NCBI GenBank assembly: GCA_963920635.1
Contig: OY987305.1
Location: 20,422,876-20,486,875, forward strand
Origin: Pseudeuparius sepicola
Lineage: Eukaryota > Arthropoda > Insecta > Coleoptera > Anthribidae
DNA length: 64,000 bases
Direction of reading: 5' to 3'
Of this stretch, positions 8,347-59,947 are shown piece by piece (position 1 is the stretch's first letter; each line of letters starts with the position of its first letter). Both the position numbers and the translations under genes were made by a program. The notes under the pieces were generated by a model. That model had not been told where the DNA came from, did no database searches, and was given only the letters and a program-made list of their open reading frames with translations.

Positions 8347-9265
8347 TTTACGGCTGTGTAGTTTTACTTAGTAGATAAAATAACGAGTTTTGCAGCCAGA
8401 AAGGTATATATTAACTTCTTTTTATAATACCAAGCTTTCGGTCTACTTCGTGACCTTCATCAGGGCTAGATTTTTTTTTTAATTATTAGAAAATATTGAG
8501 AAAAGGTTGAAATTTTACTCACAATTATGTTGAAGTTTTTTACCAATATTAAAACCAGATAGATTTTAGGTTTAAAAGGGCCAGAAAAAGGTTTTTACAT
8601 AATTTCATGTGAAAATTTATACCGTCAATTTTGTTTGTAATTGTTTTTTGTTAATAAGGTAATTTAGTTTCAAAAAACAAAAGATAAATTTATAATAAGA
8701 AAAAATGTTTTTTAGGTTATCATCAAAAAGTGTCAGAAAACTTGGTGTGATACAAGGTTAGAAATAACCTTAGTTGATATAAGGTTATGTTACAACATTC
8801 TGGAAATCCAAATTTTTATATAATTATTAGGTATAAGATGTAAGAGTTACAATGAAATATTAATAGATGTATTGTTATTAGAATTATTTAAAGATAAAAT
8901 AAAACAGTATATGGAACTTAAATCTTTGATGTCTGTTTTTTTATTAATTGACTTGTTATCATTATTAATTTCAACCATTTCAAGAAATAACCTTTTATTA
9001 AGATTTTTTTCCTTATGCAATATTGGAACATTGTCAAATTTAAAATGATGACCTGTTATAAAAGCATGTTCACTTAAAGCAGTAGTAGTTTTTTGTAATT
9101 TGACATCACTTTTATGTCCTGAAATTCTATTTTTTAAATTTTGTGATGTTTGACCAATATATGAATTATTACAGTTGTTACATGGTATTGAATAAACAAC
9201 ATTAGATTAGTTAATTATAGGTGTCTTATCTCTTAATTTTGTGTATAAACTTCCAATCGATTTAA
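8347..9265 (-). repeat. Penelope pseudo-LTR, copy 1
   Basis: It begins TTTACGGCTGTGTAG and ends TTCCAATCGATTTAA, and is nearly identical to 11478-12399. It includes the 3' end of the GIY-YIG coding region and a hammerhead-like core. Confidence 0.8.
8392..8468 (-). ncRNA. Hammerhead ribozyme-like motif in Penelope pseudo-LTR
   Basis: On the minus strand: CTAGCC, then CTGATGA, stem II GGTC/GACC, then GAAA, then GGTAT/ATACC pairing, then GGCTG able to pair with CTAGCC. Penelope-like elements are known to carry hammerhead ribozymes in their pseudo-LTRs. Stem III and the cleavage dinucleotide are not canonical here, so activity is uncertain. Confidence 0.5.
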
Positions 9266-11336
9266 CATTTTTTAGAGCTATTTTAACATTTTCATTTTTA
9301 AAAATTTTAGTTATTTTAGGGGTAAGTTCTTTAATATAAGGTAATGACCTATAAAAGAAATGATCAGGAATATTATCAACCTCTTGAATTGCAGTAATAT
9401 TATCATTATTATCATTATTATAAACATTATTTGAAATTTCGTGGGGACGTGTATTGAAAAGTAATTTGTTAAGGAATTTTTCGGGGTAAGAATTATCCAA
9501 AAGTATAGATTTAATTTTGACTAAATTATTATGCAGTAAAGTTGGATGAACTAGTTTTATTATTCTATTTTTTAAAGCCAAGACAAGATTCGTTTTCATT
9601 TTATTGCTATGATAAGAATGATAATTTAAGTATCTATTAGAGTTAGTCGGTTTGATATACCAATCAGTAATTAGAGTGTTATTAGCAAGTTTAATAATTT
9701 TAGTGTCCAAAAAAGGAATAGTGTTGTTTGTTTCCATTTCTATTGTAAATTGTAAATATTGATTATAATTATTGAAGATATCTAAAGTTTCTTCAATTTT
9801 ATTGAAAGGTATACAACATATAATATCATCTACATATTTTTTTAGAAAAATAACGTTATATGAAAGTCTTGAAATACAGTAATCTAATAAATCATCCATA
9901 ACATACTGCGCAATAATAGGAGAAATTGAGTTACCCATAGGTGTACCAAAAATTTGTTTGTAATATTGATTGTTAAAAGAAAAATGGTTAGAGTTCAAAA
10001 TAAAATTCAAAATATCAATAAATTTTTCTTTGTTGATTGAATATTGTCCCAATGTTTGTTAATACTGTTAACAATTAAATTTATTGGAATGTTAGTGAAA
10101 AGAGATTTAACATCAAGACTAATAAGAACATGATAATTAGGGATTTGTTTGTTATTAATAAATTCTGCAAATTCAAAAGAATCTTTAATATAGTAATCAT
10201 TAGATTTATTGTAAGAACGTGTCAAAATATCACATATTAAGTCGGTGATTTTATTATTAGGTGATTCAATGCAGGAAATTATAGGTCTAAGAGATAAATT
10301 AGGTTTATGTATTTTGGGTAAACCGTAAAATTTTGGGCATGTAGAGTTATGTCATAAGTTTTTTAGCAAAATTAGCATCAATCATGTTATCTCTAACTAA
10401 ATTTTAATTAGTTGATTTGCACAATTTTGTGTTGATAAAGTTGGATCCCTGTTAACTTTCTTATAAAAATGTCCATCAGATAATAAAACATTAGCCAATG
10501 TCATATACTGTTCTTTAGAAATAATTACAGTTACATTACCTTTATCAGACCTAGTTATGAAAATATTTGGATTGTCCTTCAAAAATTTTTTAGTTTTATA
10601 AAAAAGTTTATTCATGAATTGATTACTATGCTTATTATGATGTAAAAAATTAGTAATCGTATTAGTAAGTTTAGCTCTAAAAATGTTTTTTTTTATGAGT
10701 ATCAAAACCATGTAACATATTTTCAATATCTGCAAGTAGATGTGGAAAAGAAATATCTTTTATATAAGGAGGTACACAAAATTTGAAACCTAACGCAAGA
10801 AAATTTTTAATATCTTCAGGAAAAACAATATCAGTTAGATTTTTAATCCAAGAATTTTTAACTTTAATTTTATTATTAAATTCATCTTTTAGAAAGTTAA
10901 TTTTTTGAATATTGGTACGTTTATTTTCAGAAAAAAGTCTGTTATATCTATGAGTTTCTCTATTATTGAATTCTAACCAAACGTTATTTGTCAAAATGGA
11001 AGGTATTTCTGTTGTTAGGTTAATAATAGACTTGTCAATGTCAGACAGATTGTCATGTGTGAATTTAATTTCCATATTAAGAATTTTATGTATAATATTA
11101 TTTTTAAAATTATTAATTTCATTGTAACCCTTACCATTTACAGGATTAAAAAGGTTAAAAACATTCTTCATTCCATTAATAATGTCGTTAAGAAAAAGTC
11201 CAAGTCTTCTACATTCTAACAGGAAAATCTTGCGATTTGATGTAGCTGCTTTTTGTTTAAGAAGTTTGCTGTAATTCTTCAGTTTCAGAACAGTTTCACG
11301 GCCATGAATAGCTTCAATTTCTTGGAAAAATGCCAT
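8847..11336 (-). pseudogene. Penelope-like reverse transcriptase with GIY-YIG endonuclease
   Basis: The order on the minus strand is as follows. An N-terminal region starts at ATG 11336 (MAFFQEIEAIHGRE). RT fingers and palm follow in pieces at 10735-10397, 10225-10007 and 10052-9207. The GIY-YIG endonuclease runs from about 9206 to the stop at 8847. Visible motifs are SLDVKSLFTNIPI, FGTPMGNSISP, YVDDIICC (catalytic Asp pair) and, in the endonuclease, VVYSIPCNNC...SYIGQT. Penelope-like elements use the RT to copy RNA at a nick made by GIY-YIG. This copy is dead: frameshifts separate the pieces near 10700, between 10397 and 10225 and at about 10030-10050, and an in-frame stop lies just before the GIY-YIG block near 9207. 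Confidence 0.85.
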
Positions 11337-11477
11337 AAGACAGTAGATATAATATTCCAAAACCAGAGTTAAAAGAGAAGGTAAATGAATGTTTGGTAAC
11401 GTAATCCAAATGAAAGACGTAGTGTATGAATTTTCTTGAAATTCTTGATGGATTGTTTAAAAACTCAATTTCTCAAA

Positions 11478-12399
11478 TTTACGGCTGTGTAGTTTTACTT
11501 AGTAGATAAAATAACGAGTTTTGCAGCCAGAAAGGTATATATTAACTTCTTTTTATAATACCAAGCTTTCGGTCTACTTCGTGACCTTCATCAGGGCTAG
11601 AATTTTTTTTTTTTAATTATTAGAAAATATTGAGAAAAGGTTGAAATTTTACTCACAATTATGTTGAAGTTTTTTACCAATATTAAAACCAGATAGATTT
11701 TAGGTTTAAAAGGGCCAGAAAAAGGTTTTTACATAATTTTTGTGAAAATTTATACCGTCAATTTTGTTTGTAATTGTTTTTTTGTTAATAAGGTAATTTA
11801 GTTTCAAAAAACAAAAGATAAATTTATAATAAAAAAAAATGTTTTTTAGGTTATCATCAAAAAGTGTCAGAAAACTTGGTGTGATACAAGGTTAGAAATA
11901 ACCTTAGTTGATATAAGGTTATGTTACAACATTCTGGAAATCCAAATTTTTATATAATTATTAGGTATAAGATGTAAGAGTTACGATGAAATATTAATAG
12001 ATGCATTGTTATTAGAATTATTTAAAGATAAAATAAAACAGTATATGGAACTTAAATCTTTGATGTCTGTTTTTTTATTAATTGACTTGTTATCATTATT
12101 AATTTCAACCATTTCAAGAAATAACCTTTTATTAAGAATTTTTTCCCTATGTAATATTTAAACATTGTCAAATTTAAAATGATGACCTGTTATAAAAGCA
12201 TGTTCACTTAAAGCAGTAGTAGTTTTTTGTAATTTGACATCACTTTTATGTCCTGAAATTCTATTTTTTAAATTTTGTGATGTTTGACCAATATATGAAT
12301 TATTACAGTTGTTACAAGGTATTGAATAAACAATATTAGATTGGTTAATTATAGGTGTCTTATCTTTTAATTTTGTGTATAAACTTCCAATCGATTTAA
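11478..12399 (-). repeat. Penelope pseudo-LTR, copy 2
   Basis: Direct repeat of 8347-9265 in the same orientation, with only scattered differences. The high similarity suggests a fairly recent insertion. Confidence 0.8.
11524..11600 (-). ncRNA. Hammerhead ribozyme-like motif, second pseudo-LTR
   Basis: Same sequence as the motif at 8392-8468, in the second direct repeat. Two such motifs one element length apart would let a tandem transcript be cut to unit length. Confidence 0.5.
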
Positions 12400-12411
12400 T
12401 AATAATAATAA

Positions 12412-12667
12412 TAATTTAATAATAGAGAAACTCATAGATATAACAGACTTTTTTCTGAAAATAAACGTACCAATATTCAAAAAATTAACTTTCTAAAAGA
12501 TGAATTTAATAATAAAATCAAAGTTAAAAATTCTTGGATTAAAAATCTAACTGATATTGTTTTTCCTGAAGATATTAAAAATTTTCTTGCGTTAGGTTTC
12601 AAATTTTGTGTACCTCCTTATATAAAAGATATTTCTGTTCCACATCTACTTGCAGATATTGAAAATA
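12412..12667 (+). pseudogene. Penelope-like RT fragment (plus-strand copy, part 1)
   Basis: Encodes the NRETHRYNRLFSENKR-like region also found near 10960-10900 on the minus strand, in opposite orientation. It is cut at 12667 by the mariner insertion and continues at 14609. Confidence 0.75.
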
Positions 12668-13035
12668 CAGTGTGACCCATTTGTTTTGGGGTCAGTCTGT
12701 AAAAAGTGTATCAATCGTGCGATTTGGCTGATTTTTTTTTTAAATTGTAGAGCTCGATGAACTGCACATTTTGAACAAAAATTGCCTGGTTCGCATAAAA
12801 TCCAAAGCCTACTATGACCGTTTTTATGAGCAAAATTTTAAGAAACCATATTAGCGTTTTTTTTTGAAAAAATCTGTGTGCGCCAATGGATTGAGCACCC
12901 CTCGAAATGGGTATGTACAAAATTTCATCAAAATATTTCAAGTAATAACGATTTTGTAGAAAAATTAAAAATGCAGCCAAGGTACGTCTTTATTTTCAAA
13001 AATTCAAAGTTGGCCATGGAAAATAATTGAATTGT
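12668..13035 (+). repeat. Left terminal inverted repeat of the mariner
   Basis: 368 bp, reverse complement of 14239-14606. An 89-codon open frame reads outward on the minus strand (12980-12711). Its mirror image in the right repeat shows it is a by-product of the repeat, not a gene. Confidence 0.9.
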
Positions 13036-13112
13036 TTACTTTTATTAAGTGTCAAACTGTCTAAATTGAGTTCAGAAATTGTTTGTGCTCAATACAATTA
13101 ATTATCATAATT

Positions 13113-14189
13113 ATGGAATATTTAAGCATAAGAGACAAAATAGAAATTGTTCGACTCGTGGGCGACAACGAGCGCTCGGCAGCAGAAGCTGCGGCCGAAT
13201 TTAACAATAGACACCCAGGTAGATCAGTGAGTCGAAGTACTGTACAACGTATAAACAATATTTTTGATGAAACTGGATCGATTTCTAAAAATTTATTAAA
13301 TACTAGGCAAAATGGACGCCGTGGACTTGTTGAAAATAACAATCAAATTCTGCAATACTTTAGTGACAATCCTCGAAATAGTGTTCGAACGGCTAGTTTA
13401 GACCTTCATATACCCAGAGAGAGTATAAGGAGATGTTTGAGACAAAACAAAATAAAACCGTTTAAGCCAAAATTTTTGCACACCCTGGAACCAGGAGATG
13501 AGGAGAGAAGATTAGAATTTTGCTATTGGCTGCAAGGTGAATATCTCCATAATGGCAACTTTTTAAATGAAATTTTATTCACCGACGAAGCCACGTTTAC
13601 TACAAATGGTGTAGTATCAAGTCAAAACTGCCGTCACTGGTCAGCTGAAAATCCAAAGTTTATAATAAATGCAAGGAGACAATATTCACAAAAAATTAAC
13701 GTTTGGTGTGGAATACTACGCGACAGAATAATTGGCCCATTTTTCTTTGAAGGGAATTTGAATGCGGCTGGCTTCTTGAATTTTCTAGAAATTGAATTTA
13801 GAAATGCTTTAGATGAGTTACCATTAAGATACCGTTTAAATTTAAAGTTACAGTTAGATGGCAGTCCTATTCATAATGCTCGTTTAATCAGAAACTGGCT
13901 AGATAATAATTTTGAAAACTGTTGGATAGGGCGAAATAGTCCTTTCTGTGAGTGGCCACCGAGATCTCCGGACTTAACTCCTTTAGATTTTTTTCTTTGG
14001 GGTACACTTAAGCAAAATGTTTATAAGTCAAGACCCCATAATTTACAAGAACTGCAAGCTAGGATAAACCGTAGTTGTGAGGAAATTACTCCACAGCAAA
14101 TACGAAATGTAATTTTGAATGTACGCAAGAGGAACGACAAATGCATTGTAGAAAATGGAGGCTTGGTAGAAGTTACAAAAATTTTATAA
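13113..14189 (+). CDS. Tc1/mariner-family transposase (358 aa)
   Basis: A transposase for cut-and-paste movement of the surrounding element, acting in the nucleus on its terminal repeats. The N-terminal about 110 residues form paired helix-turn-helix DNA-binding domains (IRDKIEIVRLVG and SRSTVQRINNIF). The catalytic domain shows ILFTDEATFT (first Asp), LQLDGSPIHNA (second Asp), WIGRNS...WPPRSPDL and TPLDFFLWG (third Asp). I count 42 residues between the second and third Asp, close to the DD41D mariner lineages and unlike the classic DD34D. The frame is uninterrupted and ends TAA. I chose ATG 13113 (MEYLSIRDK) because the open frame upstream has no ATG and that stretch is non-conserved. Together with almost identical long inverted repeats, this copy may still be active. 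Confidence 0.9.
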   Translation: MEYLSIRDKIEIVRLVGDNERSAAEAAAEFNNRHPGRSVSRSTVQRINNIFDETGSISKNLLNTRQNGRRGLVENNNQILQYFSDNPRNSVRTASLDLHIPRESIRRCLRQNKIKPFKPKFLHTLEPGDEERRLEFCYWLQGEYLHNGNFLNEILFTDEATFTTNGVVSSQNCRHWSAENPKFIINARRQYSQKINVWCGILRDRIIGPFFFEGNLNAAGFLNFLEIEFRNALDELPLRYRLNLKLQLDGSPIHNARLIRNWLDNNFENCWIGRNSPFCEWPPRSPDLTPLDFFLWGTLKQNVYKSRPHNLQELQARINRSCEEITPQQIRNVILNVRKRNDKCIVENGGLVEVTKIL

Positions 14190-14238
14190 TTTTAATTGTT
14201 TTTATGTTTTGTGTTTATAAGCATAAGGTTGTATTATT

Positions 14239-14606
14239 ACAATTCAATTATTTTCCATGGCCAACTTTGAATTTTTGAAAATAAAGACGTACCTTGGCTG
14301 CATTTTTAATTTTTCTACAAAATCGTTATTACTTGAAATATTTTGATGAAATTTTGTACATACCCATTTCGAGGGGTGCTCAATCCATTGGCGCACACAG
14401 ATTTTTAAAAAAAAAAACGCTAATATGGTTTCTTAAAATTTTGCTCATAAAAACGGTCATAGTAGGCTTTGGATTTTATGCGAACCAGGCAATTTTTGTT
14501 GAAAATGTGCAGTTCATCGAGCTCTACAATTTAAAAAAAAAATCAGCCAAATCGCACGATTGATACACTTTTTACAGACTGACCCCAAAACAAATGGGTC
14601 ACACTG
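14239..14606 (-). repeat. Right terminal inverted repeat of the mariner
   Basis: Partner of 12668-13035. Differences are confined to an A/T homopolymer near 14403-14420 and one base near 14500. Confidence 0.9.
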
Positions 14607-14608
14607 TA

Positions 14609-15000
14609 TGTTACATGGTTTTGATACTCATAAAAAAAAAACATTTTTAGAGCTAAACTTACTAATACGATTACTAATTTTTTACATCATAATAAGCATA
14701 GTAATCAATTCATGAATAAACTTTTTTATAAAACTAAAAAATTTTTGAAGGACAATCCAAATATTTTCATAACTAGGTCTGATAAAGGTAATGTAACTGT
14801 AATTATTTCTAAAGAACAGTATATGACATTGGCTAATGTTTTATTATCTGATGGAAATTTTTATAAGAAAGTTAACAGGGATCCAACTTTATCAACACAA
14901 AATTGTGCAAATCAACTAATTAAAAATTTAGTTAGAGATACTGTTTTATTTTATCTTTAAATAATTCTAATAACAATACATCTATTAATATTTCATTGTA
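14609..15000 (+). pseudogene. Penelope-like RT fragment (plus-strand copy, part 2)
   Basis: Continues the RT N-terminal region after the mariner (NKLFYKTKKFLKDNPNIF, TRSDKGNVTVIISKEQY), then jumps near 14939 to the last codons of the GIY-YIG tail. The RT palm and nearly all of the endonuclease are deleted. Confidence 0.8.
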
Positions 15001-15380
15001 ACTCTTACATCTTATACCTAATAATTATATAAAAATTTGGATTTCCAGAATGTTGTAACATAACCTTATATCAACTAAGGTTATTTCTAACCTTGTATCA
15101 CACCAAGTTTTCTGACACTTTTTGATGATAACCTAAAAAACATTTTTTTTTATTATAAATTTATCTTTTGTTTTTTGAAACTAAATTACCTTATTAACAA
15201 AAAAACAATTACAAACAAAATTGACGGTATAAATTTTCACAAAAATTATGTAAAAACCTTTTTCTGGCCCTTTTAAACCTAAAATCTATCTGGTTTTAAT
15301 ATTGGTAAAAAACTTCAACATAATTGTGAGTAAAATTTCAACCTTTTCTCAATATTTTCTAATAACTTAAAAAAAAATTC

Positions 15381-15457
15381 TAGCCCTGATGAAGGTCACG
15401 AAGTAGACCGAAAGCTTGGTATTATAAAAAGAAGTTAATATATACCTTTCTGGCTGC
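15381..15457 (+). ncRNA. Hammerhead ribozyme-like motif, plus-strand Penelope copy
   Basis: Inverted copy of the motif at 8392-8468, with the same CTGATGA, GGTC/GACC, GAAA and outer TAGCC/GGCTG pairing. Confidence 0.5.
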
Positions 15458-15699
15458 AAAACTCGTTATTTTATCTACTAAGTAAAATTATAATATTGAA
15501 TTTTTTGAAAAAATGTTATTCTTGATCAAAAGTCTGCTTGTTCTTAAAATAAAATTGGTAAGGGAAAAGTTAACATTACTGGGTGACCGGAAAATTGAAG
15601 AAACGTTAATTCGCATAAGAACAAACTGCTTCTATTTGTAGAGATATTGAAAAAAGTTATCAAGAAAATTTGTTCAGTGTGATAAGTTACTTATGGTGT

Positions 15700-20613: not shown

Positions 20614-20811
20614 CTGCTACATAATGTGAAAAAGCTCTTAACAAAGTGTACTGTAATTTTTTTATAGAAATTTTCTTCAGCTAAGTACATCGATGAATGT
20701 TCGCAATATTATCCCAAACAATCAATAAAATTCCAAGTTAAAATTAGTTTTATATTTAAAATTATTCTCAGTGCTCAGCCACATATGGGCAACAATTATG
20801 TTTGCTTGCAG

Positions 20812-21747
20812 GTCTATTTTCCTGGCCTTATTAATGTTGTATATGTACTAAGGCCGGCAAGTTTTATACAAAAAGCTTTGTCTGAAGTTAGCAATAAACT
20901 TTTTAAAGAAGAGTTTAAATTTCGTATGATAGTATTAAGTAATACCGAGGAACTACACGAATACGTAACTTCAAAGCAACTCACTGCAGATTTGGGAGGA
21001 ACTTTGCCATACAACCATGAAGATTGGATAGAGCAACGGATTCAGCTAGAAAAATTCTCAATGATAACTCATCAAGTTTCAAATTCTCTCGATGAATTTA
21101 CACAATCCATAGATGAAATTGAGCTGCCAAACAATGTGGACTCCACTCAACAATTACTCACTAGTCAAGCATTTTCTTATTCAAATTTGAAAGAAGAAAT
21201 AATAGCAGCTGCTAAACATGGTGAAACTTTATTGTACAGTATTAAAGAAAAGAGTAATGCAAATGGAGAATATATGGAAAGTTCTGATATGGTTGGAAAT
21301 GTATTTTCTGTTGAAAGATTGCTTGTTCAGTTAGAAGAAACGGAGAAAACGTTTGATGAATTCTGGCAACAGCATTCTACAAAACTAAGGCATTGTTTAG
21401 AACTAAGGCGGTTTGAGCAAGAATTTCGAGAGTTGCAAACTAACTTTGATTCACATTTAAAAACCGTGTCAGAGATGACAGAAGTGGGGGAAACAGTAAG
21501 CAGAATAGATACCCTTATCAAAGAGACTATAGTATTTGAAAAAATCTGTCGAGTTGACATTGAAAGGGCGGAAGAGGTAGTGTCTTCTGGACAACATTTA
21601 CTTAAGATACAGAATTCATGCCCTTTAGAAGGTGTAGAACCTAAATGTAGTGAATTGCTTAGAATAAGGAATATGCTATTAGATAAACTCTTGAAAAGAA
21701 TGGCTTCACTTAATAAATGCCGAGGACTAATGGAAAGAATTGAACAG
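20812..21747 (+). CDS. Mcf2l: Rho-type guanine nucleotide exchange factor DBS/MCF2L-like, internal exon 1 (312 codons)
   Basis: Part of a DBS/MCF2L-type exchange factor. Such proteins activate Rho-family GTPases through a DH-PH module and have an N-terminal CRAL-TRIO (Sec14) lipid-binding domain and a spectrin-like region. Codons 1-70 end the CRAL-TRIO domain (VYFPGLINVVYVLRPASF, LTADLGGTLPYNHEDW). Codons 75-312 are helical spectrin-repeat sequence (DEFWQQHSTKLRHCLELRRF, QEFRELQTNF). The acceptor is ...TTGCTTGCAG at 20811 and the donor is CAG/GTGTGG at 21748, both phase 0. Nucleotides 20785-20811 are open but belong to the intron. Upstream exons are not visible. TRIO/Kalirin share this layout, but the conserved positions fit DBS better. 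Confidence 0.88.
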
Positions 21748-21801
21748 GTGTGGCTATTCATTATTCTGGCAGTCCCTTAAATTAACAAAGTAATTTTATA
21801 G

Positions 21802-22249: not shown

Positions 22250-22987
22250 GTGAGTTTTTTGTGCTCAGAGCAAAGATGTATATAACCTAGATACACAGAG
22301 CCCAGGAATCACAGGGGCATGCCTAATATCTCGCGATGTTTGTGCCACTGGACAGAAACCCGAGACAAACCTGCTCGTACGGCAAGTTCCAGATAGTCGA
22401 ACTGAGGCAGAAGTAGACAGGCACTTGCCGGTGACCACTTAGAACCAGATGGTTAATCTACTCGATAGTAGATGGCACAATTATGAATTTATTTGGAGAA
22501 TCGGCCTTTCTGAATATCTAAGTTGTATACATCTTTGCACAGAGTTAATTCAACCTGAAAGAACTTTTGCGGTTTTCTCTCTACCAACTCATTGACATTT
22601 CAAATGTATTTCCACGTGTCCATAAAAGTTTCTTTCAGTTTGGATTTACTTCTAGTTTGCGATTTAAACTTTATTTGAAAATTTGCGATTGACATTTTTC
22701 TTGAGATCACTGTATTAACCCAAAGTTGAAGCAAATAAATTTTTGAAAAGTAAAGTGGCAAATTTTCAACAAAATAATTAAGTAGGTATGTGCAAAATTT
22801 TCTCCTATATGGAAGCTATAAAAGAATTTTCAGGTAAAATTTGTGGAAAAGGCACATTTGAGGATTATAAAATTACAATCAAACTGGGCTGTAACAGCCA
22901 CAGAATATTGTCAACAAAGTGACATCTGTGGACCGATGACCAAACCATTCAAACTCATTTCTACTAAATCATAACAAGTAAAGATAA
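22250..22987 (+). other. Intron sequence of the DBS-like gene, no element recognised
   Basis: Starts with a consensus donor (GTGAGT). AT-rich, with no reading frame or inverted repeat seen before the Penelope-like element at 22988. Confidence 0.5.
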
Positions 22988-23329
22988 CATTGAATTTTAA
23001 TTGGGTTTTTCGCCACCAAACTGGTTAGAAGACAACTTTTTCAAGTTGCCTGGAAAATTAATAAATTCTTAACAGTAAATGAACTTAAACTTGAACTTGT
23101 AACTCAAAAAATATCTTCAACAAATTTGTCTCCTGAGCTTTCGGAGAATAAATCTTCCTTCTTTCTCAAAGATCTTGTCATGTCAAAGTGAAATGACAGA
23201 TTAATAAATTTCAGGTTAAAATGTCATGACAACAGAAACAATTGCCTAGCCACCTGTCTAATATTGTACCCTGTGTTCTACCTAATTATTTATACAAATT
23301 TCTCTTTGAATAAGTGGCAATAATATTTT

Positions 23330-23832
23330 ACTGAATTCCACTGAACATTCAGCAACACAGTTGTCTGTATTTCCTAGAATAAATGCTGATTCTTTAATTT
23401 TTCGTCTATTTCCTACTTCTTCTTTGAGAATTGGTTTGGAACTATCCCACAAAATCCTATGATTGTTATTAAAAGAGTGTTCACATATTTTCGACTTCGA
23501 AATTTGATTTTGCCTGATATAATTTTTATGTTCTTTTAAACGAACGATAAATGGCCTACAAGTCTCCCCAACATAGAACTTTCCACATTCGCAAGGAATT
23601 TTATAAATGCAATTTTTTTAACTTTGTACCTCATTAAATGGTTTCGTTTTAATTAGCATCGATCTTAATGTATTTTTGGTTTTAAATACTGTTCTGATAT
23701 TAAAACGATTGCCTATGCGTTTTAGCTTATCTGATAGTCGAGGAATATACGGAATAATTAAATTTACTGGTCGGTCCACCAGATTTATTTCCCTAATTCT
23801 ATTAGCATTGTTATTCTGTTGGCAATCCTTCT
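23330..23832 (-). pseudogene. GIY-YIG and RT C-terminal fragment, inverted piece of Penelope-like element
   Basis: The minus strand repeats the GIY-YIG coding region of 25080-25440 and, up to 23832, RT C-terminal sequence that is deleted from the plus-strand part. A 23620-23640 T-run shift breaks the frame. Confidence 0.75.
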
Positions 23833-23869
23833 GTTGCTGACAACAAGATTTCTAAGCTTGACATAGTAG

Positions 23870-25077
23870 CATCGGTAGAGGAAACAGCTCAAGCATTACC
23901 TGAGGAATTAGGCCAAGAATTTAGAGTCAGGTCAAAAATAATCTTAGAAAAAGATTTTAAACCAAAGTCAAATATTTTAAAGGATGAAAAAGCAGCAATT
24001 AGATCACTTAAATCAGATAGGATAATTAAAATATTACCAGCAGATAAGGGAAACGCAACTGTTATTTTAGAAAAAACGGTGTATGATAATAAATTAAATG
24101 ATTTATTAAATGAAGGAACTTACAAAAGGATAAACAAAGACCCTACAACTTCAATAGAAACTAAAATATACAAAACACTATATAAATACCGTGAACAAAT
24201 CACACAGAGACAAAGGACACTCTTAACTCCGCATCATTCAAAACCTCCACACTTTTGTATGGTTTACCAAAAATACACAAAACTAACATTCCTCTTCGCC
24301 CCATTGTAAGTTCAATAAATTCACCATGTCATTCGTTGGCAAAATATTTACTTAAAATTGTTAATCCGTTAGTAGGAAACTCAAATTCATTTATCAGAAA
24401 CAGTAATCATTTTTTGGAAAAAATTAGTTAACATGAATTTCCGGATCATTATATATTAGCTAGCTTTGATGTGGTTAGTCTTTTTACTAATGTCCCTGTT
24501 GACAAATCATTGAATATTTTATGCAGAAAGTTAGAAAATGATCAGACTTTAGTGGAAAGGACAAATTTGAATATAGATGCAATATTACAACTAACAACAC
24601 TCTGTGTTAAAACCGCTTATTTTCAACTAGGAAATAAATTTTACCAGCAGGAATTTGGAATGGCTATGGGGTCTCCTTTATCACCATTCATAAGCAATTT
24701 ATTTATGGAAGATTTTGAACAAAATGAGTTGACTAGATATGTTCACCAACCTAATGTTTGGTGGAGATATGTAGATGACATATTTGTTATATGGGAACAT
24801 GGAGTAGATGATTTAAATTCATTATTAAATTTTATAAACTCTGAAGAACCTTCTATTAAGTTTACCTTAAAAATTGAAAATAATAATTAATTACCTTTCT
24901 TAGATGTTTCTATAGTGAAATCAGATAGTATAGAAACTAGTGTCTATAGAAAACCAACACATGCTAATAGATATCTCCATTTTAATTCCAATCATCATAT
25001 TAGTGTTAAAAAAGGAGTAATTAAAAGTTTGTATAACAGGGCTAAAGAGATTTGTTCTAATCACACAAAATTTGATG
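23870..25077 (+). pseudogene. Penelope-like reverse transcriptase (RT), broken
   Basis: Visible segments are ILPADKGNATVILEK (24030 region), FYGLPKIHK after a shift near 24255, LASFDVVSLFTNVPV (24460), FGMAMGSPLSPFISNLFMED (24650) and WWRYVDDIFVIWEHG (catalytic YVDD at about 24770). A downstream frame carries SVYRKPTHANRYLHFN. Frameshift near 24260, stops near 24431 and 24888. The RT C-terminus is missing from about 25077 and the frame passes directly into GIY-YIG. Confidence 0.85.
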
Positions 25078-25452
25078 CTAGTTAAAACGAAACCATTTAA
25101 TGAGGTACAAAGTTTAAAAAATTGCATTTATAAAATTCCTTGCGAATGTGGAAAGTTCTATGTTGGGGAGACTTGTAGGCCATTTATCGTTCGTTTAAAA
25201 GAACATAAAAATTATATCAGGCAAAATCAAATTTCGAAGTCGAAAATATGTGAACACTCTTTTAATAACAATCATAGGATTTTGTGGGATAGTTCCAAAC
25301 CAATTCTCAAAGAAGAAGTAGGAAATAGACGAAAAATTAAAGAATCAGCATTTATTCTAGGAAATACAGACAACTGTGTTGCTGAATGTTCAGTGGAATT
25401 CAGTAAAATATTATTGCCACTTATTCAAAGAGAAATTTGTATAAATAATTAG
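25078..25452 (+). pseudogene. GIY-YIG endonuclease domain of Penelope-like element
   Basis: An open stretch with the GIY-YIG signature (NCIYKIPCECGKFYVGETCR), then RLKEHKNYI and the C-terminal SRNP-like block ...LPLIQREICINN, stop at 25450. In intact elements this nuclease nicks the target DNA and starts reverse transcription. The domain itself is intact but no longer joined to a working RT. Confidence 0.85.
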
Positions 25453-25744
25453 GTAGAACACAGGGTACAATATTAGACAGATGGCTAGGCAATTGTTTCT
25501 GTTGTCATGACATTTTAACCTGAAATTTATTAATCTGTCATTTCACTTTGACATGACAAGATCTTTGAGAAAGGAGGAAGATTTATTCTCCGAAAGCTCA
25601 GGAAACAAATTGGTTGAAGATATTTTTTGAGTTACAAGTTCAAAGTTTAGTTCATTTACTGTTAAGAATTTTTTCCAGGCAACTTGAAAAAGTTGTCTTC
25701 TAACCAGTTTGGTGGCGAAAAACCCAATTAAAATTCAATGAATC

Positions 25745-26366
25745 TGCCACAAATAAATCTTAGAAAATAAGTAAAGAAAACATTATACAAATTTATAAAT
25801 ACAGGGGACAATCAATAACAAAACATACAAGGATTGTTCAATAAGATAAACATTAGATAAATCAAAGTCCAATCGCCGAGTCGGCAAAATCTACTAGTAT
25901 AAATTCGGCACCAGCCACAAGCTGGGCATCTGTAAGCCCCGCTTATTAGCAGCTACTTGATCACTGACCACCCTCGGTGGTCTGACATAACAATGGATCC
26001 CGCTAGATAGCCTCCTTGTTCAGGTCGGGCTCTGAGGGGCAGACGACAGCACCCCCCGGGTACTGTTGAAGTCCTCAGCTGGTCAGCAGCGGCAGCTCGC
26101 GCCGCCGGGTTACTTCCACGTACTATCGGTCGCATCGGTCCATAGTCCGCACTACCCCTGCCATGGCCCAGATACTGTTAGAGGCATATCTGTGAGTGGA
26201 AGAATAAACATCACCCTACTTTGTACCTGCTGCCTTCTTCAATCTGCGCTTCGCGACTCCCGCACCCAGTGATCCCGGCAAGCCGCGAGGGTCAGTCCAA
26301 CCCTCCGGCACACAAGTAGTGCGACACATGGTAGAGGCCCCATGTTAAGGCACTGGTGTGACAATA
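25745..26366 (+). other. GC-rich patch, possible LTR or LTR-retrotransposon fragment
   Basis: A strongly GC-rich segment (about 25860-26340) in AT-rich DNA. It has a TATA-like TAGTATAAATTCGG near 25898, an AATAAA near 26203, and then a GC-rich tail with CCGGCACACA. This order (TATA, GC-rich leader, AATAAA, CA end) resembles an insect LTR. No second copy or target duplication was found. An alternative is an exon: 26078-26188 is open between a CTCAG and a CT/GTGAGT. I cannot decide between the two. Confidence 0.35.
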
Positions 26367-32750: not shown

Positions 32751-33169
32751 TTTTTCTTTTATTTAAAAGTTGTGAAGTTTCATATTAAAGCAGACATTAA
32801 TGTTTCCTTTTAAATATAAATGTTTTCTATATTACCTACCCAGGGCCGCGCCGAGACAGGGGCAAAGCGGGGCACCGCCCCAGGGCGGCTAAAAAATAGG
32901 GGCGGCCAAACGGTAAAAAAAGTGGACGCCTATCAAGGTTAGTCTAACCTTGGACGTATATGGCCTTCTCACCAAGCTCGGTCATGTTCATTTGCGGGGG
33001 TCCATACCTGGATATGTACTCCTTTAGGCGGTTTTTAAGTACCTACTATAACAATAATACTTCAATAAGGCGATATCACACAAAAATATATTCCTCACAA
33101 AAATAAAAAATATATTTTAAATAAAAATTATGTAAACAAAATTTTTTTGCATGTGCGTTGGTTATAATA

Positions 33170-34002
33170 CAGTGTATCCTTAGATTGAGTTCACATAAGG
33201 TATAAATAACAACAAATTTTCGAGTTGAAATTTGAGCTTCAGGGGATCAGCCCTGCTTGGTTTTAAACTAATTTGTGACATAATTTTACTTTCACGTAGG
33301 TATGCCTTGGAAATTATGAAGAAACTAATTTTCCACCTCTGTAAAGTGCCTTTTTTGTAGGTTTTACGGCAAAATGTTATTAAAAAAACTTGTTCAGAAT
33401 TAAAAGCTGCGTAGGTTTGCGAAATTTCGAAAGTTTAGGCCTCTAGGTAGGTACTTTGATTTTTTTTGGCATTTTTCACATTTTTTTTAGAAAAGTACAT
33501 TTTGTGTAGTTTTTACATCAAAATGTTATTAAAAAAACTTGTTGACAATGAAAAACTGGATAGGTGTGAAAATTTTCAAAAGCCTAAGTCGACTTTGATT
33601 TTTTCTGCTAAAAAATTAAAATGCACAAAAATCAAAGTAGACCTACACTGTTGGAATTTTTCACACTTATCCAGTTTTTCATTGATAACAAGTTTTCTTA
33701 ATAACATTTTGATGTGAAAACTACACAAAATGCACTTAGGAATAGACTTTCGAAATTTCGCAAACCTACTCAGTTTTTCATTCTGAACAAGTTTCCTTAA
33801 TAACATTTTGCCGTAAAACCTACAAAAAGGGCACTTAACTGATGTGGAAAATTAGTTTCTTCATGATATCCAAGGTGATTTTTGGAAAGTAAAATTATGT
33901 CACAAATTAGTTTCAAACCAAGCAGCGCTGATCTCCAGAAGCTCAAATTTCAACTCAATTTTTTTTATTTACACTTTATGTGAACTCAATCCGTGGACAC
34001 TG
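33170..34002. mobile_element. Mariner-type foldback MITE inside the hAT
   Basis: TA-CAGTGTATCCTTAGATTGAG at 33168 and CTCAATCCGTGGACACTG-TA at 34002. The two halves are reverse complements almost throughout (for example AAACTAATTTGTGACATAAT against GTCACAAATTAGTTT), with a centre near 33635. 833 bp, no transposase. Confidence 0.8.
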
Positions 34003-34214
34003 TAGGTTAGATAATATTAGTAATAATATTCGTATCTATTTTTTATTATTATTTTTTCATTTTATTAGGGGGGGCCATGGCCCCCATACCCCCCCCCCCC
34101 AAGACCGCGCCTGCTTCGCACTAAAGCGTCGGGCGTCGGCTCGCGTCCGCTCGGCTGGCGTCGGCGTCAAAATAAACTTTTATTTTTATGTTGTTGATGT
34201 TTCGCCTCCGCACA

Positions 34215-41397: not shown

Positions 41398-41442
<45 letters not shown>
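41398..41442. repeat. TA microsatellite
   Basis: Uninterrupted alternating AT/TA for about 44 bp. Confidence 0.95.
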
Positions 41443-41446
<4 letters not shown>

Positions 41447-41503
41447 TCTCGGATCATCAAGTCCACGAAAATATGGGCGGAGCCTGACATGAGATGGGGC
41501 GGG

Positions 41504-41722
41504 GCTTTGGGACTAGCTTCTACTAATACCACCCCTGTCCAATAGATGGCGCGACTCAACGTCAATCGTTTTGCGGGCTTTGGGAATAGCTTCTACTAAT
41601 ATCACCCCTTGTCCATAAGATGGCGCGACGGAACGTTAATGGTTTTACGTGCTTTGGGAATAGTTTCTACTAATATCACCCCTGCCCAATAGATAGCGCG
41701 ACAGAACGTTAATCGTTTTGCG
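41504..41722. repeat. Minisatellite, 73-74-bp unit, three copies
   Basis: Units start GCTTTGGGA at 41504, 41577 and 41651. Each contains TTCTACTAATA(C/T)CACCCC, a GATGGCGCGAC-like block and AACGT(T/C)AATCGTTTT. Identity between copies is about 85-90 percent by eye. Confidence 0.9.
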
Positions 41723-44536: not shown

Positions 44537-45124
44537 TATATTGCCAAACGCAAACGCTTGACCTTTATTGGCATGTTACATGTTATTACAATCATCCGAG
44601 CAGTAAAATCGGCCAACACGATTATTTATTTTTCCATTTTGGCGGGCGCCGGGCGTGTTAATTAATTTTATACTACACCATTTATATAATAATAGTTATA
44701 TTATACCATCATGGGGGGGTTTGAACCCCCTAAACCCCCCCCCCCTTATATACGGCCCTGCTTTCGAGCATTAGATTAATTGATTTTTAGGTACTATTAA
44801 TTTATTGTGCCTATTTATTCATTAATAAACACATTTTGCAAGCTTAACATGATTTACCTGTCGTCGGTAAGTTATCATTACATGCAAAAATGTCAAAATT
44901 TTCATTAGGCATGGCCTACTTTTTAGGCAATGCTCTCGAATTTAAATTTTGGCGTATTTGCAGAAATTCTACTTTTTCTCAAAAATTTCCTTATGCAACC
45001 CCAATGAAATTTTACATGTTCAACTGAAAAATTCTTGTCTGAAACATTTTTTATACAAGGTGTATTTAAAAAGTTATATCCATTATTCCATCTAAATTGG
45101 GCACCCTGTATACTGAAGCTAGTC

Positions 45125-45240
45125 AGAACAATGGGTCCACTTTTGGATCATTGAGTCCAAAAAGGTTCGTTGAGTGCGGTGGGAAGGTATGGAGGTATAA
45201 CATTATTGAGTCCGCAGAGGGGCGGTCCTAACATTTTTTC
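45125..45240 (+). repeat. Inverted repeat arm, 'GGATCATTGAGTCC' family (partner 52140-52250)
   Basis: Contains TTGGATCATTGAGTCC, GTGCGGTGGGAAGGTAT, ATTGAGTCCGCAG and GGGCGG. Each appears as reverse complement at 52147-52245 and, in part, at 52040-52085. The arms enclose 7 kb of foldback elements. Confidence 0.7.
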
Positions 45241-45784: not shown

Positions 45785-46923
45785 CAGGCAAAGTCTAGAG
45801 AATACTCTCTATACTTTGGTACAGGGCACTGTAGAAGTCAGCTCACTTCTTTGTTCTCTCGGCGAAAACAACAATTTTTTGCGACTGGTCGTAAATCAGC
45901 CTCGAACCGCTCTCAGCTACATATAGACCGGGAGATAGTGACAGATTTTTGGACGTGATTTTACTCAGTATGCCTTTCAAATGGCATTATGTTGCGTATG
46001 TTCTCACAATAATAAGGTATGAACCAGAGAGTCATCCTGGGTTCTTCATATGAAAAACTGAGTTTTCAATTATTCGAAAAATATGCGTTTTGATATGATT
46101 TTAGTCAGGCTGCCATGTGTTTTATAATGAAGTTCAAAATAGAAAATTCCTCCGGAAAACCATAGGCATACCGTTAGCGTGGGTTCAAAGGGCTATTATT
46201 GTCACGTGAACTTGTATTTTAATAATTAGTTTTTCCACGTTTCTGAACAGGCTGCCAAGGAGAAGTATGCAAGTGCTTGTTATGAAAATGCTGAAAAAAG
46301 GATGGCATACCTTTCACGCTTGTCCAAGTACTGTTTAAATTGAATGTTATTTTATAATTTAAACGATTTATTCGATGTTAAGTGTACTTGGATATGCGCA
46401 AACGGTATGCCATCTTTTCTTCAGCAGTTTCATAACAAGAACTTGCATACTTCTCATTGGCAGCCTGTTTAGAAACGTGGAAAAATTAATTATTATAATA
46501 CAAGATCACGTGGCAATAATAGCCCATTGGACCCACCCTAACGGTATGCCTATGGTTTTCCGAGGAATTTTCTATTTGAACTTCATTATAAAACACATGG
46601 CAGCCTGTATAAAATCATATCAAAACGCATATTTTTCGAATAATTGAAAACTCAGTTTTTCACATGAAGAACCCAGGATGACTCTCTGATTCATACCTTA
46701 TTATTGTGAGAATATGTGCCACATAATGCCCTTTGCAAGGCATACTGAGTAAAATCACGTGCAAAAATCTGTTTTTTCAAAAATCTTATTTTCTTATCAA
46801 ATAAGATATCGATCGCCGTACTCCGATGACGGTGGGCCGAGGGAGCGGGAGACGGCAGGGGGGAAACGTTTGTTTACACAAGGCCGAGTGCGCCGACTTA
46901 TAGTATTCTCTAGACTTTGACTG
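45785..46923. mobile_element. Mariner-type foldback element, 1.14-kb palindrome
   Basis: TA-CAGGCAAAGTCTAGAGAATA at 45783 and TATTCTCTAGACTTTGACTG-TA at 46923. Inner arms 45950-46322 and 46405-46780 are about 90 percent complementary, with a loop of about 80 bp near 46360. Excising it restores GAAG-TA-GTTCTCTTTTTG, which matches the reverse complement of 47735-47765. Non-coding. Confidence 0.85.
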
Positions 46924-47049
46924 TAGTTCTCTTTTTGATATTGAATTATGGCAATATCTCCCAAAACTATCACGCTGCTGTCATTTGTGCTCTTTTTGGA
47001 TGGTGATTTTACTAGTTTTTGAGGTTACATTTTTCGTCTTGCAGGTGCA

Positions 47050-47790
47050 TGGTTTTAGTGCACCTTTTTATTTGCAACAAAGGTTTACTCCTGCTTCATA
47101 ACGACATAGTCAACCGTTTGGGTTGAAATTGCCAAAACGTGCCCCAAAATACCTGCTAACTCAAACATTGGAAATATAAAATTTTCACCTACCACTTTCA
47201 AATGTTTCAGATCTACTGTACAATCAAAATGAAGAAAAAATGCCAAATGGACATTGGTCAAAACACCATTCGTTTTCTTGAAATAGGGTGTCAAAATTTC
47301 GTCAAATTCAATATTTTCCATTTTGAAAGCGAATAATTTTTGGTTCATTGTTCATGGGGATTTGTTTCTCACTTTAGATGGTACAGTTGATCTGTAACAT
47401 TTGAAGGCGGTAGGTGAAAATTTTAGGTTTCGCATAATTGGAGTTAACAGGTGCTTTTGGACAAGGTTTGGCATTTTCGACGCACACGATTGATTTTATC
47501 GTTATGAACAAATGAAAAGATGCACTAAAACCATATACCTGCAATACCAAAAAGGTAACCTCAAAAAAGTTTCGAAAAAAGTACGATCCAAAAATAGTAC
47601 AAGTGGCGTCCTCTGTGAGATACGTAGAAATTGAAATTTTCAGCTTCATCTCCATCCCCCAAAAAATTTCAGTGCCAAATTTTAGATCCACAGCGTGATT
47701 ATTTTGGGAGATAATGCCGTAATTCAATTTCAAAAAGAGAATTACAACGCCCTGCATTTCGAAAACAAAGTGCAAGCGAGAAAAAGTGTA
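47050..47790. repeat. Foldback family F2 interior (related to 56324-57056)
   Basis: 47195-47460 shares TTTCAAATGTTTCAGATCTAC, CATTGGTCAAAACACCATTC, ATGGTACAGTTGATCTGTAA and AGTTAACAGGTG with 56665-56945. It is a palindromic family with two related halves. Short open frames on the minus strand follow the repeat and are not taken as genes. Confidence 0.65.
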
Positions 47791-51483: not shown

Positions 51484-52015
51484 TATGTAATAGAACAAAT
51501 CCTGAAATTAATGACATAATTGCCATTTCCATTTTCAAAATTACTAGGCTTATGATTTGGATATAAAGGCTTCTTCCAACTAGACCTTTGAATCGTTATA
51601 CCGAATGTATCTATTTTAAATTCATGGAACATGACTCTGGTGGTAAAGTACATTAAGTCTTTTTTAGACCCACCTTTTAAACGTTACAAAATATCACTCA
51701 TTTTGTTGGGAACAAAAATAACTAAATAATATACAAATGGCTTTCAGATAATGAATAGTTATAGCTAACATAGACAGATGTTTTTGTAGCATAGCAGGTA
51801 AGGGATAACCAGTTAAATAAAATGCACTCCAGCCGGGATGCGACGTTCACATAACCAACAATAATGAATGGTTACCCTTTGCCGTAAAAGTCGTAGAAAA
51901 TATCAGAAAACATCTCACCGCTACTCACTAATAGTCAGTCATCCTAGATGAATCCCATTTAGAGATTAAACGTATAATTACCGCCCTCTGCCGGCCAGGG
52001 TAAAAAACATTATTA
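51484..52015. other. No gene recognised
   Basis: No repeat or reading frame supported. Confidence 0.4.
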
Positions 52016-52250
52016 GCCTGGAAACAAACCTCTAAGCTCCGCCCCCTGCGGACTCAATGTTATACCATTATACCTTCCCACTGTACTCAACACACCATTA
52101 GCCTGGAAACAAACCTCTGAGCTCCGCCCACTTTCTACTAAGCCCCGCCTCCTGCGGACTCAATGTTCTGCCATTATACCTTCCCACTGCACTCAATGAT
52201 CCAATTTGGACTCAATGATCCAAACGTGGACTCAATCTTCCGACTAATGT
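52016..52250. repeat. Tandem duplication of 'AGCCTGGAAACAAACCTCT' block
   Basis: Copies start at about 52016 and 52101, each with AGCTCCGCCC, CTGCGGACTCAATGTT and ATTATACCTTCCCACTG. The second has a short internal insertion (ACTTTCTACTAAGCCCCGCC). The segment is the inverted partner of 45125-45240. Confidence 0.8.
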
Positions 52251-52345
52251 CAGATAATGGACCCAAAGATTCAGGAAAAGATATATATATAAGAAAAGGT
52301 GATAATGGGCAAACACTCAAAGTTAACAAAAAGAAAAAACTAGTA

Positions 52346-52390
52346 ACCGCATACACGTGTTTCATGCTATTTGGCAATCATCAGGACGGT
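52346..52390 (-). ncRNA. Hammerhead ribozyme-like motif, repeat unit copy 1 (one base altered)
   Basis: Same 45-nt motif as at 53041-53085, but the base just before CTGATGA is C rather than A (52385 is G on the plus strand), which breaks the first pair of stem I. Confidence 0.55.
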
Positions 52391-52671
52391 GCAACATTAA
52401 CCAAATCAAAAGATAGGCATGATTTGGGAAGCAACAAATGAAGTCCAGGCAGGAGCCAACAGCACATTTGCAGCTTCAGTCAGCACATCCCCTATTTTGG
52501 GGCTTGTACTAACATCGCCACGGAGGCTGCTAAAGCGACCTGCGTGGAAATCTTCATAACCCAAGATACAATGAAAATAAGGATGTAAGATTAGCGAGTG
52601 TAAATGTAACAATTACAAGAAAAGGTGATAATGGGCAAACACTCAAAGTTAACAAAAAGAAAAAACTAGTA

Positions 52672-52716
52672 ACCGCATACACGTGTTTCATGCTATTTGG
52701 CAATCATCAGTACGGT
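52672..52716 (-). ncRNA. Hammerhead ribozyme-like motif, repeat unit copy 2
   Basis: Identical in sequence to 53041-53085. With copy 1 it defines a unit from 52677 down to 52352 (326 nt) between two predicted cleavage sites. Confidence 0.62.
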
Positions 52717-53040
52717 GCAACATTAACCAAATCAAAAGATAGGCATGATTTGGGAAGCAACAAATGAAGTCCAGGCTTTTAACTTTGAGTGTTTGCCCAT
52801 TATCACCTTTTCTTGTAATTGTTACATTTACACTCGCTAATCTTACATCCTTATTTTCATTGTATCTTGGGTTATGAAGATTTCCACGCAGGTCGCTTTA
52901 GCAGCCTCCGTGGCGATGTTAGTACAAGCCCCAAAATAGGGGATGTGCTGACTGAAGCTGCAAATGTGCTGTTGGCTCCTGCCTGGACTTCATTTGTTGC
53001 TTCCCAAATCATGCCTATCTTTTGATTTGGTTAATGTTGC

Positions 53041-53085
53041 ACCGTACTGATGATTGCCAAATAGCATGAAACACGTGTATGCGGT
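53041..53085 (+). ncRNA. Hammerhead ribozyme-like motif, plus-strand arm
   Basis: Order: ACCGTA, CTGATGA, TTGCCAAATAGCAT, GAAA, CACGTGTA, TGCGGT. Predicted stem I is ACCGUA/UGCGGU (6 pairs, one G-U). Stem II is UGC/GCA with a CAAAUA loop. Stem III is A-C/G-U with an ACGU loop. Cleavage would follow the A of GUGUA. This is the type I topology with minimal stem III known from Penelope elements and retrozymes. A weak point is a U-U apposition at the base of stem II, where G-C is usual. Confidence 0.62.
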
Positions 53086-53174
53086 TACTAGTTTTTTCTT
53101 TTTGTTAACTTTGAGTGTTTGCCCATTATCACCTTTTCTTGTAATTGTTACATTTACACTCGCTAATCTTACAT

Positions 53175-53177
<3 letters not shown>

Positions 53178-53211
<34 letters not shown>
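53178..53211. repeat. TA microsatellite
   Basis: Uninterrupted TA run, immediately followed by the ACGTC start of the inverted-repeat arm at 53211. Confidence 0.95.
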
Positions 53212-53214
<3 letters not shown>

Positions 53215-58500: not shown

Positions 58501-59947
58501 CAGTCCTCCGCTCCACTACTTAGGTGCTTAGGTGAAGTTAGCGTCACTAACGCCAGCGCAATGGCGCCGGCGTCAACGCCGAAAAGACAGCGTCATCGGT
58601 TTTTCGCTCACTAGCCCGTTCCACCATCGATCATAATTAAAGTCCGTGTACCAATATTATTTTTTCTAAGGGTGTTTCTGGCATTTTTTGGGATACCATT
58701 CCACAGATTACCTCCTTTGGAAAGGGGTCATCTCCAGTTTCAATGAAAATCTCGGATCTCGAGGGACAGGGGTCCATTCGCCCTCGGGATGTACCTATTT
58801 CCGTTTTTAATTTTTCTAAGTACCTACGTTCCCCCTACTTTTTGGGGATGCTATTCCACAAATAAGCTCCTTTGGGTCTCCAGTTTTAAGGTAAATCTCG
58901 GATCTCGAGGGCAAAGTGTACATTCGCTCTCGGGATGTATTGTGGAATGGCATCCCCAAAAAGTAGGGGGAACGTACCTACTTAGAAAAATAATTAAAAA
59001 CGGAAATACACTCCGCCGTGGGCGAAGAACTCTTTACCCTCGAGGTCCGAGATTTTCATTAAAACTGGAGATGACCCCTCTCCAAAGGAGGTAATCTGTG
59101 GAATGGTATCTCAAAAAATGCCAGAAACACCCTTAGAAAAAATAAAATCGGTACACGGACGTAATTATGACCGATGGTGGAACGGGCTAGTGGGCGAAAA
59201 ATCGATGACGCTGTCTTCTTTTCGGCGTTTTTGACGCCTGACATTTGTGTGGCGCTGATTTAAAGTACCACCGATATTAAGAGAAGTAAACTGGAGCACT
59301 TGTTCTCAAAACCCGCACGAGGGAATTTGGCATTCAATGCTTTACGTAATGAAGAATTACCCTTCCTTTTTTAAAGAAGTAGGTACAACCTCCTACTTTT
59401 AAGTGGGTATTTTGAAGAAAAATAAAAATGTTAATGAAACGAAAATTTAAACATTCATTTTTATAGGTCCAGTTTTGTCAATACCTAACCCTAACATTAC
59501 TTAAATTGGTGTTGATAGAGGTCCCACAATCTAACATAATGTTGGTAAATACTCTTAAAAAGGCCGTAAATAGTCTCCAAATCAAATTTGTGAAATACAA
59601 AAAATAATCATGAGAAACTAAGCGCGCCCCGAATGTCGGGCGAAAATAGCCTACGTAAACACGGCAAAAATATTTCTTAATGTTTCTTCTTATAACTATT
59701 GCCGTAACGCATAGTTTAAAGAAAGGTCATGCATGATTCTTTTTTGTATTTCACAGATTTTAATTTGGAGACTATTGACGGTATTTTTATCATGCCAAAT
59801 TCCCTCGTGCGGATTTTGAGAACAAGCGCTCCAGTTTAGGTACTTCTCTTAATATCGGTGGTACATTAAACGTCGCTAACTTCAGGCTGCAAACAGAAAA
59901 CAGAACAGAAATAAGGGATAGGCAACCGGCCTGAAAACAATGCAAAA

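Follow-up and report, generated by a model that had tools for sequence, protein, structure and literature searches.

Metazoan non-LTR retrozymes are described, in the available text of PMC7229834, as tandem repeats of 170-400 nt with type I hammerheads, low GC content and a weak stem III. In one of them, the axolotl retrozyme Amex2, stem III consists of two pairs and a tetraloop and stem II has a U.U at its base; this retrozyme cuts mainly as a dimer (PMC7229834, same sections). Minimal hammerheads are also found in the tandem and inverted copies of the pseudo-LTRs of Penelope-like elements (PLEs), according to the accessible part of PMC7761336. For rotifer PLEs, head-to-head copies with outward 3' ends and a tail on one end are reported in the available sections of PMC3846280. 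PLEs have been proposed as helpers of retrozymes mainly because hammerheads and tandem copies are common to both and because the two co-occur (PMC7229834 and PMC7761336, available sections), and retrozyme repeats are said to have no conserved motif that would help deduce the mobilising enzyme (PMC7761336, in part). In the available text of both papers, the enzyme that moves animal retrozymes is left open. The biochemistry of an Anolis PLE is described in PMC11167929. Its ribozyme cuts 26 nt into the ORF, and the main reverse-transcription start lies at 111-118; the interval from one reverse-transcription start to another makes up its 30-40 bp tail. The protein cuts and extends both strands and prefers AT-rich DNA (PMC11167929).

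We have found a compound repeat at 52291-53180 of a 64-kb window, which is the whole stretch of DNA that was analysed. It consists of two head-to-head arms of a 326-bp unit within a TA microsatellite, with the 5' sides meeting and the 3' sides pointing outward. At a probability of roughly 0.6, we read the locus as a single recent insertion, that of a non-coding retrozyme of the animal (non-LTR) type, 326 nt long, with PLE machinery as the copier. Through an arrangement common to nearby Penelope retroelements, the locus hints at the machinery that copies retrozymes. Its features are as follows.

52281..52290, no strand: short TA microsatellite of the left flank (ATATATATAT), candidate half of a target duplication whose limits are not definable
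52291..52776, minus strand: left arm, 486 bp or 1.49 retrozyme units, 3' end outward; its final 61 nt lie downstream of the predicted outer cleavage site
52346..52390, minus strand: hammerhead 1 (outer left), Rfam RF00163 21.1 bits, predicted cut between 52352 and 52351
52672..52716, minus strand: hammerhead 2, Rfam RF00163 26.5 bits, predicted cut between 52678 and 52677
52352..52677, minus strand: putative 326-nt monomer that would be released from the minus-strand transcript if hammerheads 1 and 2 both cut
52777..52778, no strand: 2-nt filler (TT) at the head-to-head junction
52779..53180, plus strand: right arm, about 400 bp or 1.23 units, 3' end outward; last certain base 53178, the two following bases being ambiguous with the TA flank
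53041..53085, plus strand: hammerhead 3, Rfam RF00163 26.5 bits, predicted cut between 53079 and 53080
53141..53178, plus strand: 38-nt tail-like extension that the right outer end alone has, the left arm ending at the position that corresponds to 53140
53178..53213, no strand: (TA)18 microsatellite of the right flank (Tandem Repeats Finder)

Direct repeats are spaced 326 bp in each arm, and hammerheads 1 and 2 start 326 bp apart. The original prediction, which was made from the sequence by eye of a model, had placed three hammerheads at exactly these coordinates; together with the spacing and the identity of two of the three motifs, they were confirmed by Rfam RF00163 and the direct repeats. 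Successive copies of the unit adjoin without any intervening coding sequence, and the unit has a GC content of 0.41 vs 0.34 for the window. It encodes nothing, as had been stated: the longest open frames are 77 and 68 codons, and no homologues of either were found among predicted proteins (one unscored candidate for one frame). The left arm differs from the circular unit at the TA-junction base and at 52385, and the right arm at the same position as 52385 only. The TA-junction base aside, the copies show one true base difference, which bears out the proposed young age. With regard to the retrozyme criterion of a tandem dimer or more, the left arm comprises 1.49 units with two hammerheads and the right arm 1.23 units. 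In its size, GC content and tandem arrangement, in coding for no protein and in having a single type I hammerhead per unit, the repeat matches published animal retrozymes, and the identification as a retrozyme, first put forward as a candidate, is well supported by anatomy.

Within the 64-kb window, there are no further copies of the unit besides 52291-53180, and the mobile family that had been suggested stays a candidate. An exact 26-mer of the ribozyme core had 0 matches in viral_contigs and 0 in genome_contigs, which are viral and prokaryotic collections and say little about insects. A looser core pattern picked out four stretches in viral_contigs, none of them a hammerhead by eye and with 0 Rfam gathering matches, and these were taken as chance. 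The insertion is flanked on both sides by TA repeats, which would hide any target duplication. TA microsatellites had been described at both edges; the right one extends over 36 bp, but the left one over only 10-11 bp, and it is not listed by Tandem Repeats Finder. No self-priming palindrome of the kind suggested in the available part of PMC3846280 was seen by eye at the junction (52777-52778). Short tandem-like repeats (pairs of 59 and 44 bp) lie close to the left edge of the retrozyme, at 52004-52246; they are related to 45120-45225 and are another repeat family, outside the retrozyme.

The hammerhead core is intact, with CUGAUGA, GAAA, three stems and a GUA cut site, and cutting is predicted after GUGUA. 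In the covariance-model check for which the original prediction had called, Hammerhead_1 (RF00163) aligned over its full length at all three motifs, but the scores of 26.5, 26.5 and 21.1 bits were all under the gathering score of 34, so that gathering-threshold matches numbered 0. Whole-window E-values of the three were 0.034, 0.034 and 2.1. Matches to MIR5638 (3.6e-05) and WsnRNA46 (0.0035), which we take for artefacts, have better E-values in the same Rfam list, and the E-value alone is therefore no proof of hammerheads. A hammerhead descriptor, which was written after the motif was seen and tolerates a single mismatch at the base of stem II, matched the three known sites and no other in the window; two of these have a six-pair stem I and are copies of one motif. 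The same descriptor found seven matches with at least five stem I pairs, one of them with six, in 300 dinucleotide shuffles of the window. Since the three motifs are copies of each other, they amount to one independent observation.

Hammerheads 2 and 3 are identical and form all six stem I pairs, whereas the outer left motif differs by one base (52385), which leaves a C.U mismatch in place of the pair where stem I adjoins the cleavage site; the 6-pair stem I originally described is complete in the two inner motifs. In loop II, the sequence CAAAUA is exactly that of the Rfam type I consensus. Stem II is weak, with a U.U at its base. Stem III had been described as two-pair, and this stands for a single molecule, where two pairs close a palindromic ACGU loop, but between two molecules it has 4+4 pairs. 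Because stem III is palindromic, the hammerheads probably work in pairs. Both this palindrome and the weakness of stem II agree with what is published on animal retrozymes.

Energy predictions were made for the ribozyme and for the circle. A double-hammerhead dimer is predicted for two 45-nt RNAs (-23.9 kcal/mol), and a lone 45-mer is predicted to prefer another fold (-6.9 vs -4.4 kcal/mol for the hammerhead). The minimum-energy 326-nt circle contains 0 of the 11 hammerhead pairs, and enforcing them costs 5.2 kcal/mol. Circle energy is lower than that of shuffles (z -2.5; 3/200 shuffles as low). We rejected a highly paired, rod-like circle: the paired fraction of 0.583 equals that of shuffles, and the hammerhead is absent from the minimum-energy circle. 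Self-cleavage by the hammerheads is plausible on these models. A single 326-nt monomer could be set free from minus-strand transcripts of the locus, provided that the damaged outer hammerhead still works; the right arm cannot release a monomer by itself because it has a single hammerhead. Read-through transcripts of the locus would be expected to form a 365-bp hairpin.

Two PLEs, here called PLE1 and PLE2, lie in the same window.

8347..12399, minus strand: left arm of PLE1, a copy with part of a second one in tandem (98% identity across 923 bp), its 3' end facing outward
12413..15487, plus strand: PLE1 right arm, inverted, 3' end outward, without tail
22988..25740, both strands: PLE2, left arm (minus) from 22988 to about 23806, right arm (plus) to 25740, head-to-head with 3' ends outward; the position of the internal junction is approximate

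The left arm of PLE1 contains pieces of a broken RT / GIY-YIG frame and ends in a 15-nt tail at 8347-8361, which lies past the repeat end and matches the internal copy; the right end has none. In Pfam searches, the PLE1 RT piece scored 27.5 bits, just under the cut-off of 29.6, and its GIY-YIG piece 28.7, above its cut-off. The RT piece of PLE2 scored 40.4 bits; its GIY-YIG part, for which there was no Pfam match, is assigned by reading of the motif. Stops and frameshifts break both elements, so neither can be the helper. Candidate target duplications were picked out by eye: TTATAATA for PLE1, where unmatched bases separate the left end from it, and AAGTAAAGA for PLE2, at 22976-22984 and 25769-25777. 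The three copies of the PLE1 pseudo-LTR each have a minimal hammerhead-like motif, at 8436-8463 (minus), 11567-11594 (minus) and 15386-15413 (plus), with CUGAUGA, a 4-pair stem II, GAAAGCUU and one extra A after the core; neither Rfam up to an E-value of 3 nor our own descriptor picked up these motifs. The PLE1 right arm is interrupted at 12662-14612 by a Tc1/mariner-like element whose inverted ends of about 374 bp share 98.9% identity and whose transposase frame (DDE_3) runs for 374 codons without interruption. TA was duplicated at its insertion into PLE1, and the insertion is probably recent.

Alignment of the retrozyme unit against five PLE regions gave no alignment above the best shuffle, one (score 26) being near the top 5%. 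Descent of the unit from the local PLEs was rejected, as these alignments give it no support. What the three have in common is form, a partial tandem that meets an inverted copy. All of the inverted retroelements examined (3/3: the retrozyme, PLE1 and PLE2) are head-to-head with outward 3' ends, although the coin-toss chance that all three agree is 1 in 4 and topology alone is therefore weak. The head-to-head inversion was at first thought unusual; this did not hold up, since it is a published form of PLE insertion and is present in both neighbouring PLEs. PLE1 further shares with the retrozyme, and with the rotifer PLEs, a tail at a single outer end. That the two arms each exceed one unit and show a single true base difference fits one circular or homogeneous template.

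Measured from the predicted cut, the left outer end of the retrozyme is 61 nt downstream and the right one 99 nt, or 101 if the two ambiguous bases are included. The ends are 38 nt apart on the unit, or 40 counting the two ambiguous bases, which falls in the 30-40 bp range of PLE tails. For the Anolis PLE, subtraction of the figures in PMC11167929 places the reverse-transcription start 85-92 nt past the cut. The end geometry of the retrozyme thus resembles, in a post hoc comparison at one locus, the two starts and the 30-40 bp tail of that element, and the 38-nt extension at 53141..53178 may be likened to the PLE tail of PMC11167929. The ends of PLE1 lie 70 and 85 nt past its putative cut, with a tail of 15 nt rather than 30-40. 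PLE2 does not fit: its ends are 141-147 nt from a GAAAGCUC box, and it has no CUGANGA box. If ends were uniformly random, a distal end at 80-105 with its partner 30-40 nt away would be expected in 0.54% of cases, and both ends within 50-105 in 3.0%, both windows having been set post hoc.

From this one locus, we infer that a circular or multimeric 326-nt RNA was copied into an AT-rich site by PLE machinery. Tandem units would first be transcribed, and the hammerheads would cut after GUGUA, probably in pairs. A host ligase would then close the 326-nt monomer. An endonuclease-bearing PLE elsewhere in the genome would supply GIY-YIG endonuclease and reverse transcriptase; the TA microsatellite would be cut on both strands, and each side would prime one cDNA, starting within the RNA at two positions about 61 and 99 nt beyond the site of ribozyme cleavage. 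Both cDNAs would exceed one full round of the template, at 1.49 and 1.23 units, and would be joined head-to-head with the 2-nt filler. Insertion by the Anolis PLE in vitro does not need ribozyme cutting (PMC11167929), so the role of the hammerhead may lie in forming the template and not in insertion. A more specific version, to which we give slightly less than even odds, is that the locus records a Penelope-type enzyme copying circular retrozyme RNA with both strands primed at the two start sites used by PLE enzymes, and that animal retrozymes would be parasites of PLEs which, though unlike them in sequence, imitate their start region at a set distance from the hammerhead.

The main rival is that a LINE-type reverse transcriptase mobilised the retrozyme and that the head-to-head form is an ordinary twin-priming inversion. 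Twin priming by LINEs yields the same geometry with outward 3' ends. LINEs and PLEs are both named as possible helpers in the available text of PMC7229834 and PMC11722881. We nevertheless think a LINE unlikely, since both PLEs in the window have the head-to-head form, the ends at 61 and 99 nt are PLE-like, and neither outer end of the retrozyme has a poly-A or LINE-like tail. Less probable still is that the 326-bp unit is the repeat of a longer, ORF-bearing element, the locus being a cluster of pseudo-LTRs, degenerate or solo, from an unseen family of PLEs. Its insertion form is indeed PLE-like, and PLE pseudo-LTRs have minimal hammerheads in tandem and inverted copies (PMC7761336, as far as available); yet the unit abuts itself without coding sequence, whereas PLE1 and PLE2 contain RT sequence, it is unlike either of them, and its loop II is the Rfam type I consensus. 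It is very improbable that the locus is an assembly artefact, or a rearrangement of satellite-like or segmental type, whose hammerhead is a non-functional relict: the scores under the Rfam threshold and the existence of hammerhead-bearing insect satellite DNAs (Dolichopoda pDo500, PMC2837043, available text) would suit it, but there are only 1.49 and 1.23 units and no long array, near-identical copies retain an intact core, and a mirror-image assembly artefact is disfavoured by arms that end at different unit positions and by unique flanks that differ beyond the TA repeats.

Other features of the window were recorded. The open frame at 20668-21780 has 59 protein matches, the best named ones in Callosobruchus beetles (62-64% identity), and its match to insect DBS-type exchange factors agrees with the insect-like genome that had been proposed. 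Long self-palindromes at 33168-34004, 45941-46772, 46982-47605, 58569-59238 and other positions are probably DNA transposons of the fold-back or miniature kind; inside 45941-46772, a Wolbachia sRNA family of Rfam matched below threshold (34.2 bits vs a gathering score of 65.3), probably as an artefact. At 41399-41722, three tandem units of 73 bp come about 60 bp after an (AT)21 run.

An insertion of PLE form with PLE-like end distances turns the proposal of PLEs as helpers into a test that can be made by counting across a genome. In the open literature, with subscription papers mostly outside it, we found no earlier report of such a PLE-form retrozyme insertion.

Among known systems, plant LTR retrozymes (PMC4918200) are likewise non-autonomous and hammerhead-bounded, with circular RNA intermediates, but they have type III hammerheads, circles of 600-800 nt, LTRs and 4-bp duplications (PMC7229834, in part). 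The Dolichopoda satellite DNA pDo500 is also an insect tandem repeat, with a hammerhead proposed to act singly or doubly; its units of about 500 bp in abundant arrays set it apart, and it is likened here by description (PMC2837043, accessible text). Endonuclease-bearing PLEs (PMC3846280, in part; PMC11167929) share a partial tandem copy with a head-to-head inverted copy and outward 3' ends, an optional tail on one end, an AT-rich target and a hammerhead upstream of the ends, whereas the 326-bp unit has no RT or GIY-YIG and no detected sequence likeness to PLE1 or PLE2. Most circles of metazoan retrozymes allow the ribozyme (available text of PMC7229834), in contrast to the minimum-energy circle here, and the present case is known from one DNA locus. 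In other respects, the locus is like the metazoan non-LTR retrozymes described there, with one type I hammerhead per unit, a length within the 170-400 nt range, low GC content, non-coding tandem copies and a weak stem III. Like Amex2 (same source), it combines a two-pair stem III closed by a tetraloop with a U.U at the base of stem II.
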